From an uncultured Verrucomicrobia subdivision 3 bacterium (GTDB lineage Bacteria > Verrucomicrobiota > Verrucomicrobiia > Limisphaerales > UBA11358): a DNA stretch of 33,536 nt. The translations under genes were made by a program, and so were the position numbers. The number at the start of each line of letters is the position of its first letter. Position 1 is the stretch's first letter. The stretch lies in assembly GCA_903820285.1 (NCBI GenBank), contig CAIJGS010000308.1, forward strand, positions 1 through 33,536, written 5' to 3'. Positions 3,001-25,612 of this stretch are shown here, in pieces. Under the pieces are notes generated by a model that was given only the letters and a program-made list of their open reading frames with translations, was not told where the DNA came from and ran no database searches.

Positions 3001-4506
3001 CACATTCGAGTAACCGCCGGTGGTGGCACTCAAGCCGGTCAGCACCGGTGACCAGGCACTGTCATTGTAATTGGTCGTGTCCCAGCCGGGCATTTCTTTG
3101 CGCGCATCGTAACTGGTGCCGATCAGCAAATCACCAAACAGAATGGGCCCGTAACTAGCCTTCCAAGAGCCGTCGCTGACAATCGTCTGCCTGGTGCCGT
3201 CGGACAATTCCAGGACGAGCTGCGCCAGAAATCGCGGGGTTCCGCCGTAATTCAGCCGCGTGCCTTTGAACGCCAGATCACTCGCATACCAGCCATCCCC
3301 CAGGATGGCGCTGATCGTATTCGAGCCGCCCTGCACCATTCCCGTGACATCATAGGTCTGGTAGTAAACGCGCTTCGTGAACTGCGTCCAGCCCGGAGTC
3401 AGCACATCTTTGCCAACCTTCTGGCCATTGAGCCGCAATTCGTACGCGCCCAGCGCGGTCACATAAACCGTCGCGCGGTTGACCGTCCGGCTGACAGAGA
3501 ATGTTTTGCGCAAATAAGGCGCGGGCATCCGCGAGATGTCGTTGAGCGCCGGCGTGCCCCACGGGGTGCCGCCACTCGCGGGCGTGGCCCAGGCGGAATC
3601 ATCATAGTTGGTCAGGGTCCAGCTGCCGGTTGGCCATTGGGCCGCCTTCCAGGTGGTATCCACCGGGAAGTTGGAGACGCTGCCGGAAGCGTACTGCACC
3701 ACCAGCCGGCCGATCACGGTGGCGGGCTGTTGGGCATCACTGTTCGTCGCCGCCAGCGCAATCACATTGGTGCCGCCGTGCATCCACGCGGTCACATTGA
3801 TCCGGGACGTCGCTTCCCAGCGCGCCGCCGAGTTCGTCATTGGCTGGCCGTTCACAAACACGCTGGCGGCGTTGTCGGCATACAGTGCCACGACGGCATT
3901 GGTGATGGTCCCGCCGACCGGCAGGATGATTTTCTTCCGCAACGACGATTGATAAAGTCCGCCCTGCGCAGACTGCCCGGAATAACTGACCCAGCTCAGT
4001 CCGGAGGTATTGTATAACGCATTGTCCGCCGCCTGTCCCGGCGTCGGCGAATAGGCTGCATCGTAGCCAATCCATTGCGCCAGCCAGTCCGTCTGGGCGA
4101 GCAGCCCCATGGACCATTGCGCCGGCACGCTCCAGGGCGACACATTGTTGCTGCCGTCATAAAGCCGTACCTGCCAGAAACAGAGTTTGCCGCTCGGCAG
4201 CGGCTGGCCGCCATACTGCACATCAAAGGTGGCCGCGCTCGTGACTTTCCCGCTATCCCACAAATCCGCCGCACCGGAAGTGGACCCAACTTGAATTTGA
4301 TAAGCGGTTTGCGTCTCGCCTCGGGCCGAGAGCGTGGCCGGCAATTGCCAGGAAAGCCGGGGCGTGACGTCGCCGATACCCAGCGGATTCACCCGTAACG
4401 CGGTACGCAGGTTCGTCGGGGCCAAAGCCGCCTGCACCTGCATGCCAGCCAGCCACGTTACCAACCCAAAGACAGCCATCACTGTCCGAAACAAATTTTT
4501 TCTCAT
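1..4506 (-). CDS. GH78 alpha-L-rhamnosidase with discoidin-like and Ig-like C-terminal extension (partial, C-terminus outside window)
   Basis: This is an exported inverting glycosidase predicted to remove terminal alpha-L-rhamnose. The frame is open from the ATG at 4506 to the window edge (1502 codons seen). Residues 1-27 form a signal peptide ending V-Q-A. An Fn3-like domain and an extra beta-sandwich follow, then the GH78 N-terminal module (NGQKVG, LGDGWY). The catalytic barrel carries DCPQRDERMGWTGD, with Glu751 as the expected general acid, and TMWERWD, with Glu1014 as the expected base. Their 263-residue spacing is close to that of characterised GH78 enzymes. SFNHYSFGAVGE is another family signature. 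After the GH78 C-terminal sandwich (to about 1155) comes a discoidin-like repeat (about 1165-1365), an Ig-like domain, and the start of a second repeat. Usual GH78 enzymes have about 900-1100 residues. The gene begins 86 bp after GH30 with no clear terminator between, so co-transcription is likely. The family call is firm; the substrate is inferred. Confidence 0.93.
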   Translation of the reverse strand, partial: MRKNLFRTVMAVFGLVTWLAGMQVQAALAPTNLRTALRVNPLGIGDVTPRLSWQLPATLSARGETQTAYQIQVGSTSGAADLWDSGKVTSAATFDVQYGGQPLPSGKLCFWQVRLYDGSNNVSPWSVPAQWSMGLLAQTDWLAQWIGYDAAYSPTPGQAADNALYNTSGLSWVSYSGQSAQGGLYQSSLRKKIILPVGGTITNAVVALYADNAASVFVNGQPMTNSAARWEATSRINVTAWMHGGTNVIALAATNSDAQQPATVIGRLVVQYASGSVSNFPVDTTWKAAQWPTGSWTLTNYDDSAWATPASGGTPWGTPALNDISRMPAPYLRKTFSVSRTVNRATVYVTALGAYELRLNGQKVGKDVLTPGWTQFTKRVYYQTYDVTGMVQGGSNTISAILGDGWYASDLAFKGTRLNYGGTPRFLAQLVLELSDGTRQTIVSDGSWKASYGPILFGDLLIGTSYDARKEMPGWDTTNYNDSAWSPVLTGLSATTGGYSNVTAIVTGFVTNNQLNFVASNGNLGGDPALNVVKVLQINYTLGGTNQTATYAENATVTIGGSGLPLTIIQALYGNSAAFPGLGGLLVQAAVTEPARCLETLAATNLTVPKPGCYTFDLGQNMVGWVRLNISGSVGDRITVRHGEMLNPDGSVYVANLRGANATDFYVFATNGTVVYEPRFTFHGFRYVEVRGLTVPPTLTSVTGVVVHSDMPLTGSFACSSPLVNKLYSNIVWGQKGNYLEVPTDCPQRDERMGWTGDTEFFVPTAVYNYDVQSFFRRHMVTFCEDAQQSSGAYAVVVPDLGAGYGGTAWGDAGWICPYNMYRTYGDTNIIADHYASFVRCGQFDAANASNYVISSLPGDFGDWLNLGGGATSKVMDTAFYAYYAQAMSEMAAAIGNSADAATYATLHSNIVAAFANFFNADGSFTDGSGQTGYALAFTLNLVPPALRAQAAQQFANSIANYGNHLATGFIGTPRLLPALHLAGRDDLAYTLLLQQTYPSWLYQVNLGATTMWERWDGWTPAAGFQTIGMNSFNHYSFGAVGEYMYDAIGGINPASPSYATIRIQPVPGIGLNWANTSYNSTRGLISTAWTNTGSAFNLDVVIPPNTTAQIFVPTTNAAAITESGVPAASSPGVTYVGLSNSYAIYAVGSGHYVWSSPFVIPVPPSVTITTTNQTGSGTGSFTPSWNVVTNGSLIAGQLPATATGDFTEETGLGTRLVSSLTAGGSLAITTGGSPKTTSTNYVTCGNGGSPAAGSTLIYNLAGSTNGYDLTNIVVYGGWGDNGRDQQAYTVYYSTVAAPAVFNSLAVVSFNPSIAGSLQSATRVSLTYPTGILASNVAALKFDFTSPTSENGYCGYAGINVFGRPSASLTVPPTLVANTQPATATTVVGDRINFTAAFTSAQPMNYQWLAISGGTTNSIAGATTPTLTLTNLQLGNTATYQLVASNALGVAVSTPASLTVGNVPAAANNIVTSISAQTGLGTGTFTPDWTAATNGSLIAGQA

Positions 4507-4592
4507 GTTATCAAAATTACCATCAGTCGCCGCGTTGCCAGCCATGCCAGGTCTTGCCTGCTCCCACAAATTTTAGAGAGACCATAAAATGA

Positions 4593-6083
4593 CTACAGGT
4601 CTTGACGGTTGAGCAGAAAGGTTGCAATCGAGTGGCCTGGAAGCATCACTGGATTAACGGTCTTCAGACTCATCAGGTTGAATTTGGCCGTCTGGTCGGT
4701 GCGGTTGAGCACCACCACCGCCACCATCCCATCGGGGTTGACGCACGCCGCCGCCTCTATATTGCTCTGTGACGAAGTACATAGAATCCGTTTGGCACCC
4801 GGCCGGATAAAGCGGGTGAAATGGCCGATGTAATAATAGGAGCTTTGAAACAGCAGCCGGTCATGCCGGGTATCAGCAATGATCGGCGCGCTGCAAAAAT
4901 TATTGGCATGATTAGGCCCGCCGTTTTCGTCCAGCACTAGGTTCCAGTCCACCCAGCCCACAGACCAGCGATTTAGATCATTGATGATCGCGGTGGCATA
5001 GCGCTCGCCCATGCCCCAATCCCCGATATGCGCTCCCCCGTCCTGACAGCCTTCCGTGGCCAGCAAAGGTTTCTCCGGCCACGCATCGTGGTGCATCGCC
5101 ATATTTTGGAAGGCCCCGTCAGAATACCAATGATACGCCGTACCCCAGATATATCGGCTGGCCACCGGATCCGAATACATCACGTCGGCATACTCCACCA
5201 TGTCATCGCGATTATGGTCCCAGGCCATGAGCTTCACCTTTTGCAGCTGCGCCCGCTGGAGTGTCGGGCCAAGATAATCACGGATGAAATCACGATGTTC
5301 GGCCGGTGTATACAGGCAGTTATCCCAGGGCGAGTTGGCCTCCGGTTCGTTTTGCGAGGTCAGCCCCCAGACATCAATTCCCTGCTTTTTGTACTCCTGA
5401 ATATAGCGGACGAAATAATCGGCCCAAGCCTGACGATATTCGGGTTTCAATTTTCCGCCATGGTTCATTTCTCCGTTGGTTTTCATCCACGCGGGGGGGC
5501 TCCAGGGAGTGGCGAATAGTTTGAATGGGGTTTTGCTGACGGCCAGGGCGGCCTTGATCATCGGCAACAATGCCCGTTCATCGCGCCCGATGGAAAAATG
5601 TTTCAGTTCCGTATCGCCGGCAACTTCGTCGTAGGCATAGTTGCTTGCGGAAAAGTCACAACTATTGATATGCGTCCGGCAGAGGGTGTAATTGTTTCCA
5701 TTGGTAGTATTAAAGTAGGCGTCGATAATGGCCGCTTGATTTGTCGGCCCCATTTTTTGCCAGGTAAGCGCCGCCGCTTCCGTGAACGCGCCACCGAAGC
5801 CCAGGATCGACTGGAACTGCCTGGCCGGATCAATGAAAACCGTGGCCAACGAACTGTCGGCGGTTTCACCGATGGTGGTAACGGGCTGCCAGCTCAGCCG
5901 GGCATTCAGGTCCTTTGCCGTCAGAATGGTGCCGAGCGTATGCGGCTGAACGCCACTCGTTGTAATATTCTGGCTGCCACTGGCGGGTGCCCCCTGCGGA
6001 AGGTCCGCGAAAGCAACCCTGCCCGCCGTGAAAAAACCGAGGCCGGCGCTCAACAGGGCATGAACGATCGTCCTGGGTTTCAT
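4593..6083 (-). CDS. GH30 family glycosidase (glucosylceramidase-like), exported
   Basis: This is a retaining glycosidase of family GH30, most like subfamily 1 (beta-glucosidase, beta-xylosidase or glucosylceramidase activity; the substrate cannot be told from sequence). I chose the ATG at 6083, giving 496 residues. It has GGAAG seven bases upstream and is followed directly by a signal peptide ending V-A-F-A. The alternative ATG at 6179 would add 32 non-signal residues and lies almost at the predicted transcription start. Visible signatures are GFGGAFTEAAA, RTHINSCDFS, the acid/base Glu246 in SQNEP and the nucleophile Glu344 in LLATEG. The C-terminus is the usual small beta-sandwich (VVVLNRTDQ, PGHSIATF). 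Length is normal for the family. It has its own promoter upstream and GH78 86 bp downstream, suggesting a two-gene unit for a mixed glycan. Rhamnose removal by GH78 may expose the GH30 substrate. Confidence 0.93.
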   Translation of the reverse strand: MKPRTIVHALLSAGLGFFTAGRVAFADLPQGAPASGSQNITTSGVQPHTLGTILTAKDLNARLSWQPVTTIGETADSSLATVFIDPARQFQSILGFGGAFTEAAALTWQKMGPTNQAAIIDAYFNTTNGNNYTLCRTHINSCDFSASNYAYDEVAGDTELKHFSIGRDERALLPMIKAALAVSKTPFKLFATPWSPPAWMKTNGEMNHGGKLKPEYRQAWADYFVRYIQEYKKQGIDVWGLTSQNEPEANSPWDNCLYTPAEHRDFIRDYLGPTLQRAQLQKVKLMAWDHNRDDMVEYADVMYSDPVASRYIWGTAYHWYSDGAFQNMAMHHDAWPEKPLLATEGCQDGGAHIGDWGMGERYATAIINDLNRWSVGWVDWNLVLDENGGPNHANNFCSAPIIADTRHDRLLFQSSYYYIGHFTRFIRPGAKRILCTSSQSNIEAAACVNPDGMVAVVVLNRTDQTAKFNLMSLKTVNPVMLPGHSIATFLLNRQDL

Positions 6084-6185
6084 TGGCAGCTTCCAAACTG
6101 ACGTGCCAGCTGCCCCGGCTTTCGACCACTCACGCCGGCCAGACATCCGAGTAACACATTGGCCGTCATAGCCATCCATATTTTC

Positions 6186-7259: not shown

Positions 7260-7283
7260 GCCCGGGGACTTTCGTCCCCGGGC
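7260..7283 (-). terminator. Intrinsic terminator after the 1660-residue protein gene
   Basis: A perfect 10-bp GC-rich stem (GCCCGGGGAC with GTCCCCGGGC) surrounds a 4-nt loop, 30 bp past the stop codon at 7313. On the minus strand it is followed by GTTTGCCTTG, a modest T-rich tract. It is almost the same hairpin as the one at 12921-12957. Confidence 0.75.
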
Positions 7284-7312: not shown

Positions 7313-8090
7313 TTACGGCAGACGGAGCCGGAAGAAGCTGGCCGGCACTGTCCCCACCGGAATGCTATTCGTGAAGGCACCCACGCCATCCAAGGTGCCG
7401 GTGCTGTTGGTTACCCAAACCGGCGACGCCAGGTTGGTCGTGCTCAGCCAGGTATAACCCGCTCCAGGAGTGCCGCCGGTGCCGGTCAGGATCAGGTTGC
7501 CACCCAACACGGTCGCCGTGCCCAGGACCGGCGGAGTCACCACGGTCGAAGGCAGATTGGTGCCCTGCAACACGATTTCCGAATAACCGCTCCAGCCGAA
7601 GTCCTGAATGCCTTGCGGCGTGAAGTCAAACTTCACTGCAGCCACATTGGTGGCGAGCATGGCCTGGCCAAGTGCCGGGGAAATCTGCACCCGGTTGCCC
7701 GAAGCCCGGCCATCATGCGGCACAAACGGATTGTAGGCCACACTGGTCAGCGGGATGAATGTGGAAGGAGCCGCCAGGGTCGAATAGCTCACGTTGTAGA
7801 ACTGACCGTCGCGGCCGTAATCGTGCCACAGGGAGTAGACCACGATGTTGGTCAGGTTCCAACCATTGGCGGTGCTGAAGACGATCCAGGGAACCGCCGT
7901 GCCGTCGTCGCCGCAGCTGGCGCCGAATTGGTAGCCGAAGCCAATCACGCCGTCGGTCAGGTTGGTCACATTGCAACCCTCTTCCGTGAAGACGCCGGTG
8001 CCGTAGCTGCTGGGCAACTGGTTGGCAATCAGGTTGGGAGTTTCCACGGTCCAATCAAAGTTGGTTTCTTCGTGCGCGGTGGTGATCACC
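7313..8090 (-). repeat. 3' gene segment duplicated at 12991-13770
   Basis: The last discoidin-like repeat and the C-terminal tail of this gene match the end of the neighbouring 1620-residue protein gene at well over 90% of residues by eye, with long identical DNA runs. The terminator just outside the coding region is also shared. Divergence rises sharply upstream of this segment. Confidence 0.85.
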
Positions 8091-11000
8091 GGTCCGGCCG
8101 TCGGCGCGGACGCCGAGGGCGTGCCGAAGACGCTGATTTCACTATAGCCGGAATATCCGTTCGGGACACCGGTCGGGACGGTGAAGTCCACATAGATGGC
8201 ATAGACGTTGCTCGCGAGCACACCGGACGCCGGCGTAAACGTCGTGCGAACAGTCGTCGGTATGCCGGCGCCCGCCGGCACCGCTTCACCGTTGCCGCCG
8301 CCGTTGGCATTGGCGGAACTGAGGTTATTCGCGACCGCGATCATCGGGAAGAACATGGTTGGATTCGCCACCGTGGAATACGAAACGGTGTAGAATTGTG
8401 AGCTGCGACCGTTGTCATTCCAACCGCCGGCGATCTGAATGTTGGTTACGTCATAGCCGTTGGCGGCCGGGCTGTAGTTGCCGAGCTGATAGGTGACATA
8501 TTGACCGGCACCGGGAGCGGAACCGCCGGCCCCACCGGTGGCAAAGGCCGGGTGGGCGCCAGTATTGTCAAAGGGACCGTAGCTACCATCGGTCAGCGCC
8601 GTCAGGCCGCCGCCCAGGTTGTGCGATTGAACACTGGTGTCCGGGTCGGCAAAATCGCCGGTCGGATCATAGTTAATAATGGGAGGATTCTGGTTGGCGA
8701 TCAAACTGGAAGCCAGCGAGGTGGTATCCCAGGTAGGCGTAAACCCGGCCGTCGTCGAGAGTTGATAGGCCACCGCCGTGACGATGTTGCTCACAGCCAC
8801 CGGCGCCGGGTCAACGAAGACCTGGCAGGACGAGGTTACGTTCGTGCCGGAAGAGTTGGAGGCCACGAGGCTGTAACCACTGTTGGTGGCCATGTCCGAT
8901 AGCTGAAGGTTATTCAGCGTGAGCGTCGGACTGGTGGCTCCCGGGATATTCGTCCCGTTTTTCAGCCATTGATAACTGTCGGCACCGCTGAAGCTGGCCG
9001 TCAGGGTCAAGGTACTGCCCACCACATCCTCGGCGATGGTCGGACTGACGTTCGCCGTCAGAACCGGCACCGGCGGCGAGGGCTGGCCGGCCACGACAAC
9101 TTCACTGTAACCGCTCCAACCGTTTTCACTCCCCGAAGCGGCATTGTAAAAGTTGATTTCAATGGCATAGACGTTTTGCGCCAGCGCGCCCGCCGACGGC
9201 ACCAGCATGGTGCGGCTGGCCGAGGGCAAGTTGGGCGAGCCACCGGCGGGATTGTAGTCCACCGTGGTTAGAGCGTTGAAGACGGTCGGCGCGGAAACCG
9301 TGGAATAGAGCACCTGATATTTCTGTTCGTCGCGACCATTGCTGCCCCAGCCGCCGTAAACCGTGATATTGGTCAGACTCCAGCCCGTGGCCGAAGAAGT
9401 GGGCAGCGTGTAAGTAACCGAAAATCCGGCGGAGTTACCGCAAGCATCCAAGGTGGTATTGCCGCCAATGCCGGGCCAATAATTGAGATAACCAGGCGAT
9501 CCATCGGAGAGAATTGCCGGGTCGCCACTGCAGGCGGAACCGATCGGGGCGAAATTGCCGCCACCGGCATAGACCGTTCCCGGAACCGAGGGGGAACCGC
9601 CATCGGTTGAACCCAAGATCAGGTCGCCGTTGGTATTTTCAATCCAGGTGGGAGTGTAATTCGTGCTGACGTTGATCGCACTGATGGCCCCCAGAAAGGT
9701 CTGGTTGGCGGTGGTGAGCACAATGTTGCCCACCGGGGCCGGCACGGGATTGACGGTCAGCGTGGCGGGCGTGCTATAAATGATAGCTGTGCTGTCGGCG
9801 ACGCTGACGGCTTTCAACCGGTAGGAACCGGAATTGTTCGTTTGCAGGTTGTTCAGCGTGAGGGTCGAGGACGTGGCACCGGAAATATCCGTCACGACGC
9901 TGTTGCTAATATACTGCCATTGCAGGTTGGCCGCCGGGGCATTGCTGAAGGTCGCCGAGAAGCTGACCTGATCGCCGACCACCGTGGTGGCGGTGGCCGG
10001 CAGGGTGTCCTGCACCAAAATCGGATTGTTCAGCGACGGGATGCCTTGGACCACGATTTCCGAATAGCCTTCCCAGTTGTTCTTGGGAGCCGGAGAAACA
10101 TTCCAGTTGATCGTGACCGCATACACATTTTTGGCCAGCGCGCCCGACACGGGAATCAGCATCGTGCGGGTTCCGGTCGGCAAGTTGGCCGGATCCGTGG
10201 GGTTGTAATCAAAGACGCCCAGGCTGGTGAAGACCGTGGGATTCGACACCGTGGAATAGAGCACCTCATATTTCTGCTCATTGCGGCCCGCGTCACCCCA
10301 GCCACCGTAGACGGTGATATTGGTGACATCATAACCGTAGGTGGAGTTCGCGAGCGTGTAGGTGATGTAATCACCGGCGCCAGCGGCACCGCAGCTGCAC
10401 TGGCCAAAATTGCCACCGACATTGACCCAGTAGGTCAAATAACCGCCCGATCCGTCGGACAACACGGACGGGTTGCCATTCATGGGACCGGGACCAGTGC
10501 CATAAGCCGACACTGTCATGTCAAAATTACTCGAGCCGGGATAGGAAGTCCCCTGAATACCGGGCAGGGCATTCGTTTGGAAACCGTTGATCAAGTCGTT
10601 GGCCGTGTCCACGGTCCAGGTGGGGGTGAAGTTCGTGCTGGTGTTCACCGGACTGAGGGCTCCCAGACCGAGTTGTTCGGAATATTTCAGGACGATGTTG
10701 CCCACCGCCGTCGGCGTGCTATTAACCACCAATTGGGCCGCCGAACTGAACGTGGGCGCGGCCGCACCGTTGGTGGCATTCACCGCTTCGAGCGTGTAGG
10801 TGCCGGCGTTGGCAGATTGCACGTTGTTCAGGGTCAGCGTGGAGTTCGTCTGACCGGCCAGGACATTGGTAACACCACCGCTGATCATGAGCCATTGCAG
10901 GTTGGCCGGCGGAAAATTGCTGTAGGTGGCCGTGAAAACAACCTGGTCACCCGCGATGGTCGCGGCATAGGAAGGCAAAGTGTCCTGAACGAGTGCCGGC

Positions 11001-12295
11001 GACGGCGGCGGCGGCGGTGAAGCCGTGTCATGACCCTGCACCACGATTTCAGAATAACCTTGGTAGGCATTGTTGAAGCCGCTCGCGTTGGGCGGGCTGG
11101 AAAAGTCGAATTTGATCTTGGCCACACCCTGCGCCAAGGCACTGCCGTCGTTCATGGCAATCGCCACCCGGTTGGCCGGGGCGCCGCTGACCGAGGGCAG
11201 ATAATAAACGGTGGTGATGGGCACGAAGGTGGTGGGTGCCGCGATGGTGGCATAGGAGACAATGTAATACTGACCGTCACGGCCACCATCACCCCAGCCG
11301 CTGTAGGTGACAATGTTGGTGATGTCCGACCCATTGATCAGGTTATTGGTCAGCGTATAGATGATGGAGGTACCACCATTGGCACCGCAGGTCGCAAAGC
11401 CGCCAATCGTACCGGAATGACCGATGGCGCCATCGGTCAACTTCGAAGTGCCGCCGGCACTCTCCTGAGTGAAATTGCCATTGGCAGTGGAGGGACTCAA
11501 GCCCAGCAGCAAGTCCGGCGTTTCCGCCGTCCAAGTAGGCGTGAACGGACTGGTACCACTTTGATTGGAATAGGTGATCGAAACCGCCGGCACCGGCACC
11601 GTCGCCACTGTTCCGCCCACCGTAATGGCCGCCAGACCGCAATAGCCATTCTCCACGCCCGGCCAGTTCAAAATGAATTGCAGGGCGTAAACATTATTGG
11701 CGATCGCCCCGCCGGAGGCATTTTTGATGACCGCCTGGATGGCGTCCGCCGTGTTGGCGGCAATAGAAGGATTACTATTGACGTAGGCCAGATAGTTAAA
11801 CTGGGTCGGATTGGCCACGGTGGAATAAAAAACCGCATAGGCCTGCTGATCGCGACCGCTATTGGCCCAACCGCCGTAGACGGAAATATTGGTGACGTTA
11901 TAGCCGTAAGTGTTTGCTGGAAGCGTATATACAAGCGATGACCCCGCCGAACTGCCGTTGCCGTAGGTCACATAATTCGTGCTGGTCGTGGTGCTCGGCT
12001 GGATGATGCCAATGGTCAGATTCGTATTAACCGTCAGGGAGTTGACATTGCGGCCGGCGATTTCCAGGCTCCAATTGCCGGGAGCCGAGGTGGGCGTCAA
12101 CCCGTGAATCAGGCTGTCGGCCTGATCAACCACCCAGGCAGAGCCGGTGGGGGTGAAGGGCCAGGTACTGGCGGTACCGGTCTGATTAGCCGTCGTGACG
12201 GTCACCTGCGCCGAGGCGTAACCGGCAAATAGCAGTAAAGCACCGCAGGCAAGGCTGGCGGATATTTTACGTTTGAGCTGTGGAGGGTTGTTCAT
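7313..12295 (-). CDS. Giant exported protein of six discoidin-like repeats and three Ig-like domains
   Basis: This 1660-residue protein has a signal peptide at 1-30 ending Y-A-S-A/Q. I recognise no enzyme in it. It is built from about 200-residue repeats near residues 31-233, 235-425, 532-755, 857-1072, 1168-1395 and 1400-1580. Each has an LTDG-type turn, a GGWxDxGRDxQ block, YSTVxxPTxF and a closing NGYxGYSEIxVxG. I read them as divergent discoidin / F5/8-C-like beta-sandwiches, which usually bind carbohydrate. Three Ig-like domains (about 432-530, 760-855, 1076-1167) with STLTLNNLQ signatures separate some of them. The last 70 residues are a tail ending FFRLRLP. A likely role is glycan binding or adhesion at the cell surface. 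It has the shared 72-bp promoter module about 180-250 bp upstream, its own terminator, and no Shine-Dalgarno sequence. Confidence 0.85.
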   Translation of the reverse strand: MNNPPQLKRKISASLACGALLLFAGYASAQVTVTTANQTGTASTWPFTPTGSAWVVDQADSLIHGLTPTSAPGNWSLEIAGRNVNSLTVNTNLTIGIIQPSTTTSTNYVTYGNGSSAGSSLVYTLPANTYGYNVTNISVYGGWANSGRDQQAYAVFYSTVANPTQFNYLAYVNSNPSIAANTADAIQAVIKNASGGAIANNVYALQFILNWPGVENGYCGLAAITVGGTVATVPVPAVSITYSNQSGTSPFTPTWTAETPDLLLGLSPSTANGNFTQESAGGTSKLTDGAIGHSGTIGGFATCGANGGTSIIYTLTNNLINGSDITNIVTYSGWGDGGRDGQYYIVSYATIAAPTTFVPITTVYYLPSVSGAPANRVAIAMNDGSALAQGVAKIKFDFSSPPNASGFNNAYQGYSEIVVQGHDTASPPPPPSPALVQDTLPSYAATIAGDQVVFTATYSNFPPANLQWLMISGGVTNVLAGQTNSTLTLNNVQSANAGTYTLEAVNATNGAAAPTFSSAAQLVVNSTPTAVGNIVLKYSEQLGLGALSPVNTSTNFTPTWTVDTANDLINGFQTNALPGIQGTSYPGSSNFDMTVSAYGTGPGPMNGNPSVLSDGSGGYLTYWVNVGGNFGQCSCGAAGAGDYITYTLANSTYGYDVTNITVYGGWGDAGRNEQKYEVLYSTVSNPTVFTSLGVFDYNPTDPANLPTGTRTMLIPVSGALAKNVYAVTINWNVSPAPKNNWEGYSEIVVQGIPSLNNPILVQDTLPATATTVVGDQVSFSATFSNAPAANLQWQYISNSVVTDISGATSSTLTLNNLQTNNSGSYRLKAVSVADSTAIIYSTPATLTVNPVPAPVGNIVLTTANQTFLGAISAINVSTNYTPTWIENTNGDLILGSTDGGSPSVPGTVYAGGGNFAPIGSACSGDPAILSDGSPGYLNYWPGIGGNTTLDACGNSAGFSVTYTLPTSSATGWSLTNITVYGGWGSNGRDEQKYQVLYSTVSAPTVFNALTTVDYNPAGGSPNLPSASRTMLVPSAGALAQNVYAIEINFYNAASGSENGWSGYSEVVVAGQPSPPVPVLTANVSPTIAEDVVGSTLTLTASFSGADSYQWLKNGTNIPGATSPTLTLNNLQLSDMATNSGYSLVASNSSGTNVTSSCQVFVDPAPVAVSNIVTAVAYQLSTTAGFTPTWDTTSLASSLIANQNPPIINYDPTGDFADPDTSVQSHNLGGGLTALTDGSYGPFDNTGAHPAFATGGAGGSAPGAGQYVTYQLGNYSPAANGYDVTNIQIAGGWNDNGRSSQFYTVSYSTVANPTMFFPMIAVANNLSSANANGGGNGEAVPAGAGIPTTVRTTFTPASGVLASNVYAIYVDFTVPTGVPNGYSGYSEISVFGTPSASAPTAGPVITTAHEETNFDWTVETPNLIANQLPSSYGTGVFTEEGCNVTNLTDGVIGFGYQFGASCGDDGTAVPWIVFSTANGWNLTNIVVYSLWHDYGRDGQFYNVSYSTLAAPSTFIPLTSVAYNPFVPHDGRASGNRVQISPALGQAMLATNVAAVKFDFTPQGIQDFGWSGYSEIVLQGTNLPSTVVTPPVLGTATVLGGNLILTGTGGTPGAGYTWLSTTNLASPVWVTNSTGTLDGVGAFTNSIPVGTVPASFFRLRLP

Positions 12296-12477
12296 AGCAG
12301 TTCTGATTTTCTGGTTGGTTGATTGGTTGGGTCGTTGCCAGGGTTGTTTGCAGTTTGGACAGGTTTGATTGCGGACAGGGGCATGCTGATTGATCAGTTT
12401 TTAGTCAAGGCGGTGAACGCCGTTGCAAACGGATGACATTCCATCTGGGTACTGCATTTGTTGTAATGGATAAATGT

Positions 12478-12549
12478 ACTATACTCGCAATCACCCTTTC
12501 GCATATCCCCAAACATGGTGAAGACCCCCCTACCGAAATAGGTGATGGT
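12478..12549 (-). promoter_or_regulatory. Shared three-site promoter module, copy A
   Basis: This 72-bp block matches 18046-18117 at about 59 of 72 positions and resembles 25272-25343. It contains three copies of one site. A distal copy CCGAAATAGGTGAT is at 12533-12546, a middle copy CCAAACATGGTGA is at 12509-12521, both reading on the plus strand, and an inverted copy CGAAAGGGTGAT lies on the minus strand at 12501-12490. Six bases further on the minus strand is TATAGT (12483-12478), a good -10 hexamer. No good -35 is present, and the inverted copy covers that region. This suggests an activator-dependent promoter with a leader of about 175 nt. Confidence 0.65.
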
Positions 12550-12552
12550 TCC

Positions 12553-12920: not shown

Positions 12921-12957
12921 AGGCAAAAGCCCGGGGACTTGCGTCCCCGGGCTGCCT
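12921..12957 (-). terminator. Intrinsic terminator after the 1620-residue protein gene
   Basis: The same 10-bp stem as at 7260-7283 (12929-12938 with 12943-12952) surrounds a 4-nt loop, extended by an outer AGGCA/TGCCT pairing across a small bulge. On the minus strand the stem is followed by TTTTGCCTTGTTT, a proper T-rich tract. The stop codon is about 35 bp upstream. Confidence 0.8.
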
Positions 12958-12990: not shown

Positions 12991-13770
12991 TCACGGCAGC
13001 CGCAGCCGGAAGAAGCTGGCCGGGACTGACCCGACCGGAATGCTGTTCGTGAAGGCACCCACGCCATTCAAGGTGCCGGTGCTGTTGGTCACCCAAACCG
13101 GGGCCGCCAGGTTGGTGGTGCTCAACCAGGTATAACCCGCCCACGGCGTACCGCCGGTGCCGGTCAGAATCAGGTTGCCACCCGACAAGGTTGCCTTGCC
13201 CAAAACCGGCGAAGTCACAACAGTTGAAGGCAGATTGGTGCCCTGCAACACGATTTCCGAATAGCCAGACCAGCCATAGTCCTGCTGCCCTTGCGGAGTG
13301 AAGTCAAACTTCACCGCGGCCACATTGGTGGCCAGCATGGCCTGGCCCAGTGCCGGGGAAATCTGCACCCGGTTACCCGTCGCGCGGCCGTCATGCGGCA
13401 CAAACGGATTGTAGGCCACACTGGCCAGCGGGATGAATGTGGAAGGAGCCGCCAGGGTCGAATAGCTCACGTTGTAGAACTGACCGTCGCGGCCGTAATC
13501 GTGCCACAGCGAGTAAACCACGATGTTGGTCAGGTTCCAGCCGTTGCCGGTTCCGAAGATGATCCAGGGAACCGCCGTGCCGTCGTCACCGCAGCTGGCA
13601 CCGTATTGATAGCCGAAGCCAATCGCGCCATCGGTCAGGTTGGTTACATTGCAACCCTCTTCCGTGAAGACGCCGGTTCCGTGGCTGCTGGGCAGCTGAT
13701 TGGCGATCAGGTTGGGGGTTTCGACGGTCCAGTCAAAGGTGTATTCCTCGTGCTGCAGGGTAATCACCGG
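12991..13770 (-). repeat. 3' gene segment duplicated at 7313-8090
   Basis: This is the second copy of the near-identical last discoidin-like repeat plus tail. The copies differ mainly by scattered synonymous changes and about two dozen residues, such as the PGAGY and PWAGY variants in the tail. Confidence 0.85.
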
Positions 13771-16700
13771 CCCGGCGGGCGGCGCACTCGCCGAAGGCGT
13801 ACCGGACACATTGAGCTGGCTGATGCCGGAATACCCGTTCGGGATGCCTTGCGGCCACTCAAAGTTGAACTGGATGGCGTAAACGTTACTGGCGAGCAGG
13901 CCAGCGGCCGGGGTAATCGTCGCCCGGATTTCAGATTTGGAGCCCAGCGTGGGGGTATTGGTAACCACCGCGAGAGGGAGGAAGACGGTTGGGTTCGCCA
14001 CCGTGGAATAAGTGATGGTGGCCCAATCGGCATTCCGGCCATCGTTATTCCAGCCACTGGCCACGAGAATGCCCGTGAGGTCATAACCATTGGCGTTGGC
14101 CGGCAGCGTGTAGGTGACATACTGGCCGGCGGTCGGTCCGCAAGTGGCAAAGGCGTAATGGGAGCCGGTGTCAACCACGGTTCCGTAGTCCCCATCCGTC
14201 AGGGCCGGCAACCCGCCAGCCAAATTCTGGCTGACCGGATTACTATCCGGATCGTTGAAATTACCCGGACCGTAGTCACTCGGCGTAGCCCCGCTGATCA
14301 AGCTCGCGGCAAACGCCGAAGTATCCCAGGTAGGGGTGAAGCTGGCGGCATCTGACGCCTGATTGGCATAGGCGACAATCGTATTGCCAATGGCCGCCGG
14401 CGCCGGGTGAACGATGAGCGTACAACCACGCGTCACCGAAGTGCCTGCTCCGTTGATCGCCTTGAGACGGTAGCCGCCATTGGTGGCCGTGTCGGTGAGC
14501 TGCAGGTTGTTCAAGGTCAGCGTCGAGCTGGTGGCTCCGGAGATATCGGTTCCGTTCTTCTGCCATTGATAACTGGTGGCCCCGCTAAAGCCCGCTTGCA
14601 GCGTGACCGAACTGCCCACCACATCTTCCGCCTTGAGCGGAGTGATGTCCTGAGTCAAGACCGCCACCGGCGCTGAGTGCGTGCCGGCAATGGTGATTTC
14701 GGAGTAACCTTCCCAGCCATTCTTGGGCTGGGAACCTTGCAGGTTCCAATTGATCTGAACCGCCGCCACATTTTGCGCCAGCACGCCCGTCGCGGGAGTG
14801 AGCATCACGCGGGTGGCGTTTGGTTCGGAGCTCGAAAACGCGGGGTTGTAGTCAAACGTGCCAATGCTGCTGAAGGTCGTGGGAGCAGCCACGGTGGAAT
14901 AAAGCACCTGATATTTCTGCTCATTGCGACCGTCGTCCGACCAGCCGCCATAGACCACGATATTTGTCAGGTCAAAGCCATTGGTCGCCACGCTCGTATC
15001 CAAGTTATAGGTCATGCTGAGACCGGCGCTGCTGCCCGGTCCACAGCTGACCATGCCGAACTTGACATTGGTCAGATTGCCGTCGGCCAAAATGGTCGGG
15101 TCGCCGTAAAGTTGGGTATCGACCCCAAAATTACCCGCCCCGGCCGTCGCCGTGCCCGGATTGCCGGATCCATCCGTGGGATATCCGAAAATCAAGTCCG
15201 TGTTGGTGGCCATGAGCCAGGCGGGATAGTAAGTCGCCGGACCGGATTGACCACTATTCTCCTGAACCACATTGCCCACCGTGGCTGGCGTGCCGACCAC
15301 GAGGGTCGCCACCGGGCTGTACGCGATGGCTGCGCTATTGGTCGCATTGATGGCTTCCAGCAGATAATTGCCGGAATTGGTCAGTTGCACATTGTTGAGG
15401 GACAGCGTCGAGGTGGTGACTCCGCCGCTGGAAACATTGACCACGCCGGTGTTGATCAGATTGGTCGTGCCGGAGGCAATCTGCACCCATTGCACGGCGC
15501 CCGCCACGTCATTGCTGTAGGCCGCCGTGAAGACCACCTGATCGCCCACGAAGGTCTCGGCATGAGACGGCAGAATGGTTTGGACCAAGGTGGCCGTCGG
15601 CGCGCCGGTCGTCAGGCGGACATTGTCAAACGCCGCCTGATAGGTGCCGGCCGGAGGGACGCCCAGCACAATGGTGAGATCCCCGCTCACCGAAGCCCCG
15701 GTGGTGAAGGTGACCGAATAGTCCTGCCAGGTGCCCGGTGTGGTCGGATAACCGGTGGTGGCTGCCAGCACCGTGCCGGTGTTGTCGGTGCCATTAACGA
15801 GGGAAATATCGCCCGGCGACCAGTTGCCGGTTCCGCCCGGACCATTGTCATCGCGGCGGCCGACCGCAACCGTAAGGGTATAGGTGGTGTTGGGCTGCAA
15901 GGCGCCCACATCCTGATAGGCACCGGTGTCGCCACTATCGCCCGGTCCCGTATTCACCGCATAATATTGGGTGCCATCGGGAACAATAGCCGGGGAATAG
16001 GCACCGGTATCGGTTGCCACGGTCGACCAGTCGCCATTAAAGGATGTCCATTGCACGGGGATTGCCCCGTTGCCGAAAGCCGGCGTGGATCCATTTTCAA
16101 AGCTGAAATTGTTGACAGTGACAATGTTCGCGGCGCTGATCACCACCCCGGTGGAGCTCGTGATGGAACCGGCGGTGTTGGTGATGACGACATGATAAGA
16201 ACTGGTGCCAGCCACCGAAGTGAACGAGTAGCTGTTGGTGGTCGCACCGCTGATCGGGCCGCTTTGATTATACCACTGATAGTTTAAGGGCGTACCCGTG
16301 GCGGCAACGGACATAGTTATCGGCGTGCCCGTGACCACTTCCGACCGGCGCGGATTGAGATCCGTGACCAAGTTGGGCGCGATGACCGCCGGCACCGTCC
16401 CCGAAAGGGTCAGGTTGTCAATGCCGCCGAGTTCGTTGCCATCGGCGCGGAAACCGAGCTTCAGCCCCGAGCTGCTCAACTGACTCAAGCTGACCGTACC
16501 GAGCGTGGTTGCGCCACTCATTACCGTGACTTTTGAGCCGTTGCCAGTGAAAGCCGAGCCCGTTCCGGCGTTATCCGTGAAGATAAACGTCATATGATTG
16601 TCCGGCGCAAAACCGCCATTGTTCCAGCCAGAAGGGGTAATACCGCCACCGTTCTGGAACAGCTGCAAGCCGCCATCCGACTGCCGCAAAAAGCCGAATT

Positions 16701-17853
16701 CGCCCGACCCAACGATGGGAAAAAAGCTGTTGGGCACATGGCACAAGCCAAGGGCCAGCCAATCGTTATTACTCACATACATGTCCAATTCAACCTTCAA
16801 CGGCCCGGTGGAGATAACCGGAATGTCCAGGTCGCTGTAAAAATAGCCGTTGAATGCGGTAAGCACATAGCCGCTGTTGGCCGCGCCAAATGGCTGACCG
16901 ACACCGGTACCACTGTTGCCAATCTGATGGTGCCAGTCGCCAGGAGTATAATTGAAGGGGGCCAGCAAGCCGCTCTGGCGATCAACCAGATCCACATTCA
17001 GATTGTTATTGTTTTCCGGATCGAGTCCATAAACCGCGTTGAAGTTATCATGGAAGAGGACCGGCAGGGCAGGCGCAGCGGGCAATGTGCCAGATATGAT
17101 CAGGTTGTCGATGCCGCCATAGCGGTTATCGTTACTGAAACCGAGCCGGAGACCCGTGCTGCTCAACTGGCTCAAGGTAAGGGTGACGCTAAACGAGGTG
17201 GTCACATTCGAAATCGTGACTTGCGAGCCGTTCCCGACGAAGGCGGAGCCGGTTCCCGCCGTATCAGCGAAGGTGAAAATGAAAGTGCCGTCCCCGGTAA
17301 ACCCGGCGCCGGAATAGGCGCCGCCGGTGATTTCGCCGCCGTTTTGGAACACCTGGAAACCGCCATTGGCCCGCTTGAGCAAGCCGAATTCACCGCCCCC
17401 GGCGATCGGGAACGTATTGCCCGGTGATCTTAAGGTGAACCCCATCCATTCGGTTTGGTCAGAACTGCCGCCATCCGCGCCATTATTATACATGTCCACT
17501 TGAATGGTCAGCGGCCCGGTGGAAACCTTGGCGATGTCCAGATCGCTTTGAAAAGACCCGCCGGCGAGGAGGATATATCCACCATCCGCAGGGTTGGGTT
17601 GGCCGACATCCGTGGTCGTGTTGCCGATCTGATGTTGACTGCCACTTAACGTATAGGTGGAGAAGAAACCCGAGCTGACGGAAGCCAGCGGACCCGTCTG
17701 ACGGCCGGCGGCAATGCCTTGGTTGACATCCTGGTTGTTCACCCCACCTGAGGGAAGGGTAAAGGTGTCCGTAAGCAGGACGGCCGCTGAGGCAGCCTGA
17801 GCCATCGCCGCCATGGAGGCGGCAATAAGCAGACTATGCAATTTGTTTTTCAT
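12991..17853 (-). CDS. Giant exported protein: two LamG-like domains, carbohydrate-binding-like domain, Ig-like and three discoidin-like repeats
   Basis: This 1620-residue protein has a signal peptide at 1-23 ending A-S-A. Two homologous concanavalin/LamG-like domains follow (about 24-256 and 265-486; shared DLDI..STGPL, GEFGxL, LSQLSSxGLxLGF and GGIDNL blocks). Next come an Ig-like domain (495-573), a carbohydrate-binding-like sandwich opening NFSFENG and closing FDNVRL (580-748), a second Ig-like domain (755-854), a discoidin-like repeat, a third Ig-like domain, two more discoidin-like repeats, and the FFRLRLP tail. No catalytic motif was seen. The C-terminal half follows the same order as the neighbour at 7313-12295 and its last 255 or so residues are nearly identical, so the two arose by duplication with exchange of the N-terminal half. 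A surface glycan-binding or adhesive role is inferred. Promoter module B lies upstream; no Shine-Dalgarno sequence precedes the ATG. Confidence 0.85.
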   Translation of the reverse strand: MKNKLHSLLIAASMAAMAQAASAAVLLTDTFTLPSGGVNNQDVNQGIAAGRQTGPLASVSSGFFSTYTLSGSQHQIGNTTTDVGQPNPADGGYILLAGGSFQSDLDIAKVSTGPLTIQVDMYNNGADGGSSDQTEWMGFTLRSPGNTFPIAGGGEFGLLKRANGGFQVFQNGGEITGGAYSGAGFTGDGTFIFTFADTAGTGSAFVGNGSQVTISNVTTSFSVTLTLSQLSSTGLRLGFSNDNRYGGIDNLIISGTLPAAPALPVLFHDNFNAVYGLDPENNNNLNVDLVDRQSGLLAPFNYTPGDWHHQIGNSGTGVGQPFGAANSGYVLTAFNGYFYSDLDIPVISTGPLKVELDMYVSNNDWLALGLCHVPNSFFPIVGSGEFGFLRQSDGGLQLFQNGGGITPSGWNNGGFAPDNHMTFIFTDNAGTGSAFTGNGSKVTVMSGATTLGTVSLSQLSSSGLKLGFRADGNELGGIDNLTLSGTVPAVIAPNLVTDLNPRRSEVVTGTPITMSVAATGTPLNYQWYNQSGPISGATTNSYSFTSVAGTSSYHVVITNTAGSITSSTGVVISAANIVTVNNFSFENGSTPAFGNGAIPVQWTSFNGDWSTVATDTGAYSPAIVPDGTQYYAVNTGPGDSGDTGAYQDVGALQPNTTYTLTVAVGRRDDNGPGGTGNWSPGDISLVNGTDNTGTVLAATTGYPTTPGTWQDYSVTFTTGASVSGDLTIVLGVPPAGTYQAAFDNVRLTTGAPTATLVQTILPSHAETFVGDQVVFTAAYSNDVAGAVQWVQIASGTTNLINTGVVNVSSGGVTTSTLSLNNVQLTNSGNYLLEAINATNSAAIAYSPVATLVVGTPATVGNVVQENSGQSGPATYYPAWLMATNTDLIFGYPTDGSGNPGTATAGAGNFGVDTQLYGDPTILADGNLTNVKFGMVSCGPGSSAGLSMTYNLDTSVATNGFDLTNIVVYGGWSDDGRNEQKYQVLYSTVAAPTTFSSIGTFDYNPAFSSSEPNATRVMLTPATGVLAQNVAAVQINWNLQGSQPKNGWEGYSEITIAGTHSAPVAVLTQDITPLKAEDVVGSSVTLQAGFSGATSYQWQKNGTDISGATSSTLTLNNLQLTDTATNGGYRLKAINGAGTSVTRGCTLIVHPAPAAIGNTIVAYANQASDAASFTPTWDTSAFAASLISGATPSDYGPGNFNDPDSNPVSQNLAGGLPALTDGDYGTVVDTGSHYAFATCGPTAGQYVTYTLPANANGYDLTGILVASGWNNDGRNADWATITYSTVANPTVFLPLAVVTNTPTLGSKSEIRATITPAAGLLASNVYAIQFNFEWPQGIPNGYSGISQLNVSGTPSASAPPAGPVITLQHEEYTFDWTVETPNLIANQLPSSHGTGVFTEEGCNVTNLTDGAIGFGYQYGASCGDDGTAVPWIIFGTGNGWNLTNIVVYSLWHDYGRDGQFYNVSYSTLAAPSTFIPLASVAYNPFVPHDGRATGNRVQISPALGQAMLATNVAAVKFDFTPQGQQDYGWSGYSEIVLQGTNLPSTVVTSPVLGKATLSGGNLILTGTGGTPWAGYTWLSTTNLAAPVWVTNSTGTLNGVGAFTNSIPVGSVPASFFRLRLP

Positions 17854-18045
17854 AATTATGATATTTCGTGGGGGAGCGCGGGGTCAGGGGTTTGGTGTTG
17901 CGTCTGGTCTTTTTGGATTGGAGTTGTGGAGCTTCTTGTCTGCGGTCTGCAAATAATGAAAGTTAATATGGCGTTTGAGCGATTAAATATATGACAGCGG
18001 GTATGAGCCCGGCAGGGTTTACATTTATTTGTATTGGATTCATCC

Positions 18046-18117
18046 ACTATACAAGCAATCGCCCATCCGCATATACCCAATGTTGGTGAAGACGACACTA
18101 CCGAAATAGGGGATGGT
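18046..18117 (-). promoter_or_regulatory. Shared three-site promoter module, copy B
   Basis: This is the same 72-bp architecture as copy A. The distal site CCGAAATAGGGGAT is at 18101-18114, the middle site CCAATGTTGGTGA at 18077-18089, and a more degenerate inverted site on the minus strand at 18069-18058. After 6 bp comes TATAGT (18051-18046). Distal-to-middle spacing is 24 bp, as in A. The leader to the ATG at 17853 would be about 185 nt. A fourth site-like sequence, TTCAAGGGTGATTG on the minus strand, lies at about 18140-18153. Confidence 0.65.
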
Positions 18118-18151
18118 CGCCGGAGCGCCTTTTTACCACCTCAATCACCCT

Positions 18152-18174: not shown

Positions 18175-21100
18175 TTATTGAAACCAGAGGCGGTAAAAGA
18201 CACTGCCATTGCCGGGGTTGATGGGGAAAGACAACTGGTTGGTCACGGAGGAGCCAGCCACATCGACCCAGTTGGTTCCCAGCCCTTGAGCCAGACTGTT
18301 CGTCTGGACCTGCAACCGCCAGCCGAGGTGGTCGCCGGGCCAGCTTAAGGTCAGCAAATTGCCCATCGACAACTGCGACAGCAGTACGGGCGACGCCGTT
18401 GAGACCACGGACAGGGTCCCGTTGTTCACCAGGTTATTGGCCCAGGCATTGGGCGTGACGCTGGGCAGGTTCACGGTCGTAAACCCGCTGACTGGCTGAT
18501 TGAACAACTGGAAGATGTCCCCGGCCTGCAACGCCGGGCCCAGATTGCTCACCGTCAGCGTGCCCCCGGCGGTGATGGCCCCCACCCCGCTCACCAGCCG
18601 GTCATTCGGCACCCCGTTGGTCCGGTTCAGTTCCATCACCAGCAGTCCGTTCAACACGATGTTGCTTTGCACATTCAGCGTACCGATGCCATCGCCCGGA
18701 TTAAGGGTCGAACCGGCCTGCGCCGCCAGCTTGCCCTTCAAGGTCCCACTGCCCTTCAAGGTTTTTCCGCTGTTCAAGGTCAAGGTCTGGTCGGCGCGAC
18801 CGGTCACATCCAGCGTTGCCCCATTCGATACCGCAATCAGCGTGCTCGCACCGACTGAGCCCGGTTCTACCAGCGCGAGCGTGCCGGCATTGACGGTCGT
18901 ACTCCCGGTATAGATATCCGCCACGTTCAAGGACAATGTCCCACTGCCCAACTGTACCACCGAGCCGGTGCCGGAAATTAGGTTGCTCACAGTCACCACA
19001 TCCGTGCGTTTAAAGGCCAACACAGCATTATTGGTCAAAGCGCCGGATCCCAAACTGCCGTTGGTATCACTGTTGCCTACCTCCACGGTGCCGCCGTTGA
19101 TCTGCAGGCTGGAGAAACTATTCGCCCCGCCGTTATCCAACATCAACGTGCCGGTGCCATTCTTGATCAGGCTGCCGCTGGTGACGCCGAAGCTGCCGGC
19201 CAGCACATAGGTCTTGGTCGAATTATTGGTAAGCACCGTGGGCGAATGATTACCTGTCAGCGTCACCGTGATCGGACTGCTGCCGGTCGCGCTGTCGTCC
19301 AACGCCACCAGATTATTTTCCTGGTAACTGGTGACGGCGCCGCCGGGCAGCGTCTTCCAATTTAGAGTGCTCGTGTCCCAATTGCCGCTCGCGACCGCCC
19401 ATTTCACCGGCTGCGGTGTGGGCACGCCGGCCAGCAGGATTTCTGTATACCCGCAATAGCCGTTCTCCGAGGTCGGATTGGTGAAGTCAAACTTCACCGC
19501 CGCCACATTCGTCGCCAGCGCGCCGCTGGCCGCCGTCAGGGTCGCCCGGGTGGCCGACTGCGCATTGGCCGCATTCGCCGGATTGTAATTAACGCTGCCC
19601 AAAGAGATGAAGGTCGCCGGTGCCGCCACGGTCGAGTAGTAAACGGTGTAAGCTTGCTGATCGCGTCCGCCGTCCGCCCAACCGCCGTAAACGGTAAGGT
19701 TCGTCAAACTAAAGCCGCTGGCCGAACCGGTCAGGGTGTATATCACCGTGGCCCCTGCCCCGCCACTGTTGCCACAGGTCACATAGTTGATGCTGGTGGT
19801 ATAGCCCGAGGTGGCGCTGATCTGGGTAATCGAACCATTGCCGCCATCGGTCAGGGAGCCGACGTTCCGCCCCGGAACTTCCAGCGTGAAACTCCCGCTC
19901 GTGCTGCTTGGCGACTGGCCGGCAATCAGGCTGTTATTCGTCACCACTGTCCACGTGGGTGTAAAGGTGCCGCTGCCCGTGCCAGTTTGCGCGGCCAGCG
20001 AAGTGATGACATTGTTTACCGCCGCCGGCACACTCGAAACCGTCAGCGCCCCGGGTGAACTGACCGCCACGCCGTAGGTATTGGTGGCCCGCAACTGGTA
20101 GCTCGCCGTGTTGGCCAGTTGCAGGTTGGTCAGCGTGAGGATCGAATTCGTCGCCCCCGCCACATTGTTAGTCACCCCGCCACTGATCTTCTGCCACTGG
20201 TAGGCCAGCCCAACACCGGAAAAGGCCGCCGTAAAGGTCACCTGGCCGCCCACGACATCCGCCGCCGTCACCGGCAGCGTGTTCTGGGTCACGGCCGGGT
20301 AGATGGATGTGCCATATACGGAAATTTCCGAGTACCCACAATAGCCGTTCTCCGGCGCCGGCGTGGTGAAATCAAACATCAGGGCGGCCACGTTGGTGGC
20401 CAGCGGACCACCGGTGGCGGCGCTGAATGTCGCCCGCGTGGCGGACTGGACCGCACTGGGATTGGCCGGATTGTAATTGGCGCTCGCCAGCCAGATGAAA
20501 TTGGTCGGTGCTGCCACGGTGGCATAATAAACGGTATAGGCCTGCTGATCCCGCCCTGCATCGCCCCAACCTCCATAAACCACGATGTTCGACACATTGT
20601 AGCCGCCGACGGCATTGCCCAGGCTATAAGTAACCGACTGGCCGGCGCTCGAACCGCAACTGACCTCGGTGGTGCTGCCACCACCATTCGGCAGCGTGCC
20701 GAAACTGCCGTCAGTAAGCATGGTGACGTTCTGCCCAAAACTGCCACTGCCCACGCTACTGGGGGACTGTCCAATGAGCAGACTTCCCGGCGCCACCGTC
20801 CAGGTGGGGGTAAAGGTTGGGCTCGCACTGCCAAGACCCGTCTGGGCCGCAAAGGCGGCGATGACATTGGTGACCGCAGCCGGCAGGTTGGAAATCACGA
20901 GCGGACTGGCGGCGCTTACCGCCGCCCCCCATACGTTCGACGCCAGCAGACGGTAGTAAGCCGCATCGCCCAATTGGAGATTGGTCAGCGTCAGCATCGA
21001 ATTGGTCGCCCCTGCAACGTTGCTCAGCAAACCGCCGGTGATTTTCTGCCACTGATACGTGATCGGATTGGTGCTGGTAAAGGCGGCCATGAACGTGACC

Positions 21101-25167: not shown

Positions 25168-25271
25168 AGGTGCAAGGTCATCCGCAAATACAACAAACTT
25201 AACCAGCTGCGCCATCGTTGCCGACGGAAAGCGAGCCGAGTGCCGGTTCTGGGTTTGGAGTTGGTTCTCCT

Positions 25272-25343
25272 AGATTATCGCTTTAACCCGTTTCCACCTA
25301 TCCCCAAACACGGTAAAACCCCATCACCGAAACGGGTGATGGT
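25272..25343 (-). promoter_or_regulatory. Shared three-site promoter module, copy C
   Basis: This copy is more diverged from A and B but keeps all parts. The distal site CCGAAACGGGTGAT is at 25327-25340, the middle site CCAAACACGGTAA at 25304-25316, and an inverted site GGAAACGGGTTA lies on the minus strand at 25295-25284. After 6 bp comes TAATCT (25277-25272), with GATAAT overlapping. Distal-to-middle spacing is 23 bp instead of 24. The leader to the ATG at 25167 would be about 100 nt. Confidence 0.6.
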
Positions 25344-25436
25344 GCAGCCAACAATTGGGGGAGCCTGACTGAACATGATGAGTGGCTTGGTGATGAGACA
25401 AAAAGCTGCCTGCCCGGGCTGGCTGAAGCCCTAACA

Positions 25437-25612
25437 ATGCAGTTAAAAAACATTCTTAACCACGGATGGGCACAGATAATCACGGATGCGAACGCATTAC
25501 CAGACCTGCAAACCGGCCAACCACATAATGCCCGATGCCCATCGTCCAAAAAACCACCGCTGACACGGTATTAATCTGGGTTCATCCGTGTCCATCCGTG
25601 GTTGAACTGCAT
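25437..25612. repeat. Imperfect inverted-repeat element, possibly MITE-like
   Basis: The outer ends are ATGCAGTT (25437-25444) and AACTGCAT (25605-25612), a perfect 8-bp terminal inverted repeat. Inside each end is AACCACGGATGG followed by further CACGGAT-like heptamers at 10-bp steps (CACGGAT, CACAGAT, CACGGAT on the left arm; two on the right arm in inverse orientation). The centre has no recognisable gene. It sits between the terminator of the 2509-residue gene and module C. It may be a small non-autonomous mobile or dispersed repeat. Confidence 0.6.

Follow-up and report, generated by a model that had tools for sequence, protein, structure and literature searches.

Three giant exoprotein genes in a 33,536-nt stretch of DNA from an uncultured Verrucomicrobia subdivision 3 bacterium (the window; contig C308 of a genome assembled to 5.2 Mb in 395 contigs, 91% complete) are each preceded by a copy of the same short module, which raises the question of what this module is and what might act on it. 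A preliminary description, made from the letters alone, took it for the operator array of an activator, with three sites per copy. The activator-type promoter is well supported by the analysis presented here; the three sites are not, and a NarL-type response regulator (RR) is now a strong candidate for the regulator. We put the probability at roughly 0.78 that the module forms the operator and core of a promoter that depends on an activator, and that a kinase with a CBM67-type sensor acts on it through a NarL/GerE-type RR, thereby controlling rhamnosidases and exoproteins. The features of the window on which the argument rests are the following (R2 is the site profile described below; A4 is an alignment).

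1..4569, minus: GH78 alpha-L-rhamnosidase gene (Pfam), cut at the window edge, without a site of its own
4593..6179, minus: GH30 gene (Pfam), no R2 match before it
7313..12295, minus: exoprotein gene, 1660 aa, Ig-like domains; start 181 nt after copy 1, its predicted driver
12478..12483, minus: -10-like TATAGT of copy 1 (read from A4; family-wide position test)
12504..12547, minus: two boxes of copy 1 (R2 match 12477-12551, E 2.6e-17 per genome; A4); box 1 CATCACC-N6-GGTAGGG, 12547-12528; box 2 ACC-N6-GGGGATA, 12519-12504 (box coordinates counted by hand)
12991..17853, minus: exoprotein gene, 1620 aa; start 189 nt after copy 2, its predicted driver
18046..18051, minus: -10-like TATAGT of copy 2 (A4; family-wide position test)
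18072..18115, minus: two boxes of copy 2 (R2 match 18043-18119, E 2.9e-14; A4); box 1, 18115-18096; box 2, 18087-18072 (counted by hand)
18175..25215, minus: exoprotein gene, 2346 aa (DUF642, PATR); start 56 nt after copy 3, its predicted driver
25274..25279, minus: -10-like GATAAT of copy 3 (A4; family-wide position test)
25299..25341, minus: two boxes of copy 3 (R2 match 25272-25345, E 4.5e-16; A4); box 1, a perfect CATCACC/GGTGATG dyad, 25341-25322; box 2, 25314-25299 (counted by hand)
25734..33263, minus: 2509-aa autotransporter-repeat protein gene (NCBIfam), no R2 match before it

The copies lie where the preliminary description had put them, in a common orientation and each upstream of a giant exoprotein gene; every copy carries the -10-like hexamer without a good -35. 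The true start of the 2346-aa gene may be an internal ATG 48 nt further in. It had also been said that no copy precedes the GH30 gene or the 2509-aa gene, and this holds, since at E<=1 R2 matches the three copies and nothing else in the window. In a BLAST search of its own genome, copy 1 found copy 2 at E 3e-16 and copy 3 at E 2e-5; a half-site-like match at G000:C392:10088 (E 0.77; G000 is this genome) was not recovered by R2 and was left as chance. A gapped two-box pattern gave three matches in the 5.2-Mb genome and none in the reversed control.

Several further elements of the window deserve mention in their own right. Behind the stop codons of the 1660- and 1620-aa genes (7260-7283 and 12929-12952) stand near-identical GCCCGGGGAC..GTCCCCGGGC hairpins with short runs of T after them; they resemble terminators, and these genes may therefore be transcribed singly. 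An inverted repeat with 30-nt arms of the CCACGGATG...CATCCGTGG type, 80% complementary, occupies 25458-25603, between copy 3 and the 2509-aa gene. A pseudopilin-like gene (6319-7203; N_methyl, with DUF1559 in the window copy) adjoins the exoprotein genes and recurs elsewhere, with relatives at G454:C136:26314, G505:C44:19156, G534:C13:6163, G443:C24:59327, G587:C80:14360 and G587:C9:154168; one pseudopilin-like gene of G587:C9 is the first gene after a site. A C-terminal ending such as PASFFRLRLP or GSVFYRLWFQ is shared by the window exoproteins and many site targets, and is perhaps a sorting or anchoring signal.

An exact pattern searched over 387 genomes of the phylum matched this genome alone, so that profiles were needed to reach its relatives. 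A sequence-only profile, R1, was built from five sequences, including two genus relatives out of 59 genomes; run over 49 genus genomes it yielded 25 aligned sites, from which R2 was made. At E<=1e-3, R2 found sites in 16 of the 49 genus genomes and in 22 of 293 genomes of the order, combining to 65 sites in 26 genomes and five families; adding two weaker ones, at E 0.002 and 0.006, gives a working list of 67. The search scores a limited number of candidates per genome, so sites may be missed, and the sites recovered include most of the 25 used for training. The genome under study has five, the three of the window plus C346:45343-45418 and C238:37204-37266, and sites tend to cluster, up to four per contig (G454:C136).

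Over 57 loci R2 gave 71 matches, 67 of them with both boxes and enough flank. The sense-strand consensus reads CATC(A/C)CC-N6-GGTGATG, a short spacer, (T/C)NACC-N6-GGGGATA and then TAnnnT, at 23-25 nt counted from the A behind GGGG. The two boxes repeat in direct orientation with a period of 23-24 bp (24, 24 and 23 bp in the three copies of the window). TAnnnT starts within one 3-bp window in 56 of the 67 sites, against a maximum of 13 at any offset in 500 shuffles of the flanks. The centre of box 2 would thereby fall near -43, where a -35 is expected, and that of box 1 near -67. An activator box near -43 is the layout of class II activation; with start-relative positions predicted from the -10, the module has the corresponding combination of an activator site over the -35 position and a -10 at fixed distance. 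The inverted third site of the preliminary description did not survive the comparison. Its best mean over the 67 related sites is 3.54 matches of 12, with a shuffle maximum of 3.6, which is chance level; in the window, copy 3 matches the inverted half-site at 9 of 12 bases and copy 1 at 8, and copy 2 is not among the 14 best matches listed. It was therefore rejected as a conserved part: the conserved array consists of two sites, not three.

That such copies might be a functionless dispersed repeat, or a relic of the tandem duplication of exoprotein genes, draws on the likeness of copies 1 and 2 (80% over 89 nt) and of the ends of their genes (87% over 300 nt), and duplication has therefore spread part of the module within the window. 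Random scatter, named beforehand as the mark of a dispersed repeat, was looked for and is not what the family displays. Under a strict rule, by which a site lies outside called genes (at least 150 aa) and its nearest gene is on the same strand and within 250 nt, 59 of the 65 sites with enough flank are gene-proximal, compared, on the same contigs, with 3.9% of positions drawn at random and 32% of those drawn at random from intergenic DNA. The other six fail because of overlapping or opposite-strand gene calls or, once, distance; under a laxer rule each has a same-strand reading frame 47-361 nt downstream. Sites moreover precede unrelated genes (GH78, GH106, PEP-CTERM and Ig exoproteins) in 26 genomes, and a functionless repeat, largely refuted by the positions, has next to no likelihood. 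A structured leader RNA such as a riboswitch, with box 1 as its hairpin, also seems extremely improbable. Box 1 can fold as a 7-bp hairpin, and matched CCCC/GGGG arms occur in five sites; at one arm position, however, an uncompensated C.T mismatch is found in 26 of 70 sites versus 5 compensated, so that the stem is not kept by compensatory changes. The boxes would, besides, lie upstream of the transcript, since the -10 follows them at a fixed distance (in G392 it stands a mere 40 nt or so upstream of the gene), and a search of the window against Rfam gave nothing at E<=1.

Site family, two-box geometry and fixed -10 are computed observations, and so are the classes of genes downstream. Two of the 71 matches have no gene and two are partial, leaving 67 first downstream genes (38 + 29; some cut by contig ends). 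Fifteen of these encode a GH78 catalytic domain and three GH106, giving 18 alpha-L-rhamnosidases; there is one GH88 and one GH76, an Ig_3 domain is found in 37 (E<=1e-5), and one target is a PEP-CTERM protein. The surface-protein regulon proposed earlier thus stands as far as exoproteins are concerned, but it does not comprise surface proteins alone, as rhamnosidases belong to it too. The regulon is better read as a rhamnose-glycan set of rhamnosidases and exoproteins, the link of the exoproteins and of the GH30 gene to rhamnose being a putative one. An excerpt of a study of freshwater Verrucomicrobia MAGs describes them as rich in GH29, GH78, GH95 and GH106 (PMC5615132).

The candidate regulator was first seen in clusters of another family, as a kinase-regulator pair beside a site. 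The genome under study encodes such a pair on C346, in the order kinase, RR (45515-46249), site, exoprotein gene, GH78 gene. Above the curated Pfam cut-offs the RR has Response_reg and GerE domains and the kinase HisKA_3 and HATPase_c, which places both in the HisKA_3/NarL-FixJ class of two-component systems; phosphotransfer from this kinase to this RR is predicted. An RR at least 60% identical is present on 24 of 46 site-bearing stretches and a kinase on 23, the kinase gene adjoining the RR gene on 23 of the 24; for 15 of these 24 RR genes, a same-strand site follows the 3' end at a distance of no more than 300 nt. The RR is absent from the DNA examined in the other 22 of 46. Contigs were chosen here for having sites, so these counts do not come from a random sample. 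A single G454 contig carries both the window's locus and the kinase-RR pair. The window rhamnosidase, cut at base 1, corresponds to residues 9-1508 of 1753 of one G454 gene (90.5% identity to G454:C136 27317-32578), and the truncated gene on the edge of C346 to residues 70-795 of 795 of the next. Because these edge-cut genes match consecutive G454 genes, it is very likely that C308 and C346 adjoin each other, which would put the RR a few kb past the left end of the window. The GH30 gene has no homologue in the G454 locus.

Across the 293 order genomes that were also searched for sites, matches to this RR of at least 340 bits (68-100% identity) occur in 21. Both RR and site are found in 20 genomes, RR only in 1, site only in 2 and neither in 270; at 300 bits the figures are 20, 5, 2 and 266. 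In the genus subset (37 genomes) they are 10, 0, 2 and 25 at 340 bits and 10, 1, 2 and 24 at 300 bits. Fisher tests that ignore kinship give 1e-27 (340 bits) and 3e-24 (300 bits), and 2e-7 and 2e-6 for the genus; the 340-bit cut was chosen after viewing the table, and the co-occurrence was read by eye. The RR-only genome at 340 bits, G597, has a site at E 0.0011, and those added at 300 bits are G492, G632, G452 and G475. The site genomes G408 and G395 have RRs of only 62-64% identity, besides one cut-off 68% match. Paralogues of the RR, 56-79% identical, are encoded in its own genome at G000:C238:24961-25656, C267:3716-4405, C338:17905-18591 and C381:6378-7037. In G632 an RR 71% identical (C21:3541-4161) is followed by a weak site (E 0.03) about 220 nt further on, which suggests sister systems with variant operators.

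A further link comes from the recognition helix. In 21 aligned RRs the position following DTVC (DTVS in one) is taken by Ser 15 times, by His 4 times and by Cys and Thr once each. We take this residue to correspond to Val189 of NarL; Val189 is a base-contacting residue. Box 2 starts with CTAC in all 6 sites on contigs with a His RR, in none of 32 on contigs with another RR, and in 3 of 26 on contigs without an aligned RR; 7 of the 71 matches, window copy 3 included, are gapped at the start of box 2 and were left out of this count. In five of the six sites that go with a His RR, box 1 contains GGGGATG as well. G418 encodes two RRs, one with His and one with Thr, and the site next to each is of the corresponding kind. 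The paired change may be one evolutionary event in one clade.

Linkage, co-occurrence, the matched helix and operator changes and the fold of the kinase sensor were all computed. Pfam recognizes the kinase core only. An AlphaFold2 model based on 21 homologues gives a beta-sandwich sensor with pLDDT 83-93 over residues 41-180; the model of the whole kinase is modest (pLDDT 72, pTM 0.39). Its best Foldseek matches are DesK kinases, and the kinase part also pairs with VraS; lower matches are a Streptomyces avermitilis rhamnosidase with L-rhamnose (3w5n, E 1.7e-10) and a Pleurotus lectin (6kc2, an entry with rhamnose). The Foldseek table gives no ranges, and sequence profiles place the matches on the sensor and on rhamnosidase residues 139-294, where homology to the CBM67 module of SaRha78A reaches E 1.7e-16. 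A conserved D-N and a later N of the sensor align, counted by hand, with D179-N180 and N228 of the rhamnosidase, which we take to be its calcium- and rhamnose-binding residues. Calcium-dependent binding of L-rhamnose by the sensor is a prediction. In the related lectin Shictin, according to an excerpt, two aspartates are conserved for calcium-based sugar binding (PMC11512411). Among the best 80 of 526 loci in a search of a named collection with the kinase, 12 also matched in the sensor (11 from Verrucomicrobiota groups, 1 labelled only bacterium). An R2 site at E<=0.01 was found at 2 of these 12, which look like G610 and G414 again, and at none of the 68 kinase-only loci. Since the more distant CBM67-type kinases (41-50% identity for the most part) mostly lie at loci without an R2 site, they are left outside the operator reading. 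A box-2-like motif, TCACCCATTTGGGGGATAGAC, occurs in two weak copies (L168:3938-3973 and 4869-4915; E ~0.04) before two genes of a Haloferula MAG whose CBM67-type kinase is 44% identical.

Taken together, the module is probably the landing site of an on-switch for exoproteins and rhamnose-cutting enzymes that senses an external rhamnose-containing sugar. A membrane histidine kinase with an extracytoplasmic, calcium-type CBM67-like sensor would detect L-rhamnose or a rhamnose-bearing glycan and phosphorylate the NarL/GerE-type RR encoded alongside it. RR dimers would then occupy the box 1 dyad (about -67) and the dyad-like box 2 (about -43, in place of a -35), and the bound RR would bring RNA polymerase to the -10 that starts 23-25 nt downstream of box 2. 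Under its control would stand secreted rhamnosidases together with the giant Ig-like exoproteins, whose part would be to capture the same glycan or to process it. The analysis supports an activator; binding, ligand and transcription starts, like phosphotransfer, activation rather than repression and the role of the exoproteins, are inferred.

Two other assignments of the operator have to be weighed. The module could serve an activator of another type common to the loci, for example of the AraC or LacI type, with the two-component pair merely a co-controlled neighbour. Direct boxes about two turns apart do resemble the operators of Bacteroides hybrid regulators (HTCS) with AraC-type output, inferred in the excerpt available as direct repeats at an average distance of 21 bp (PMC3878776), and nearly half of the site-bearing stretches are without the RR. 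An AraC-type operator was indeed the initial reading, dropped once two-component genes appeared in the clusters. Against another regulator stand the close co-occurrence of RR and site, the coincidence of recognition-helix and box-2 changes, and the dyad of box 1; dyad sites are the form bound by GerE-type dimers. We therefore allow this alternative a small chance. Alternatively, the RR itself could act on the module as a repressor or dual regulator, as the sign of control is not given by sequence alone; yet a regulator box in the -35 place without a good -35, as found here with box 2, is the usual layout of activator-dependent promoters, and repression seems improbable.

The proposed two-component system can be set beside several known ones. 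It shares with the HTCS of Bacteroidetes a glycan-sensing kinase and a DNA-binding output over a polysaccharide locus, as well as two-box direct-repeat operators as given in an excerpt (PMC3878776), but kinase and regulator are separate genes rather than fused, the output is GerE and not AraC, and the period is 23-24 bp and not about 21. With DesK/VraS-type kinases and NarL/FixJ RRs it has in common the domain composition of both proteins, whereas its sensor is extracytoplasmic and CBM67-like; DesK has a membrane sensor different in kind. Sequence profile, fold and aligned residues link that sensor to the CBM67 of SaRha78A, although it sits here in a histidine kinase and its sugar and calcium binding are predicted. 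Operators of Escherichia coli NarL consist of heptamers; inverted half-sites around a short spacer and several dimers per promoter are common to both, while the sequence ACC-N6-GGT and two dyads in fixed tandem before one -10 are particular to the present module. HTCS, ECF sigma and catabolite repression are named in a review of how hemicellulases are regulated, and a text search of it yields no Verrucomicrobi-, LuxR or NarL (PMC10766802). Among the entries listed by a search of open-licence papers, none was noticed that dealt with a CBM67-type-sensor kinase or with this operator.

On a broader scale, we give even odds to an expanded family of glycan-sensing two-component systems in this order of Verrucomicrobiota, in which a glycosidase sugar module has been grafted onto a kinase and paralogue-specific two-box operators co-vary with their regulators, the giant Ig-like exoproteins being machinery for the capture of rhamnose-rich glycans under joint control with rhamnosidases. 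If true, such a family would parallel the Bacteroidetes HTCS while being assembled from different components. The paired change of helix and operator makes the binding claim directly testable. Little-cultured polysaccharide degraders would gain a concrete candidate regulator, an operator and a predicted inducer, and the operator could be used genome by genome to link giant exoproteins without an assigned function to a substrate.
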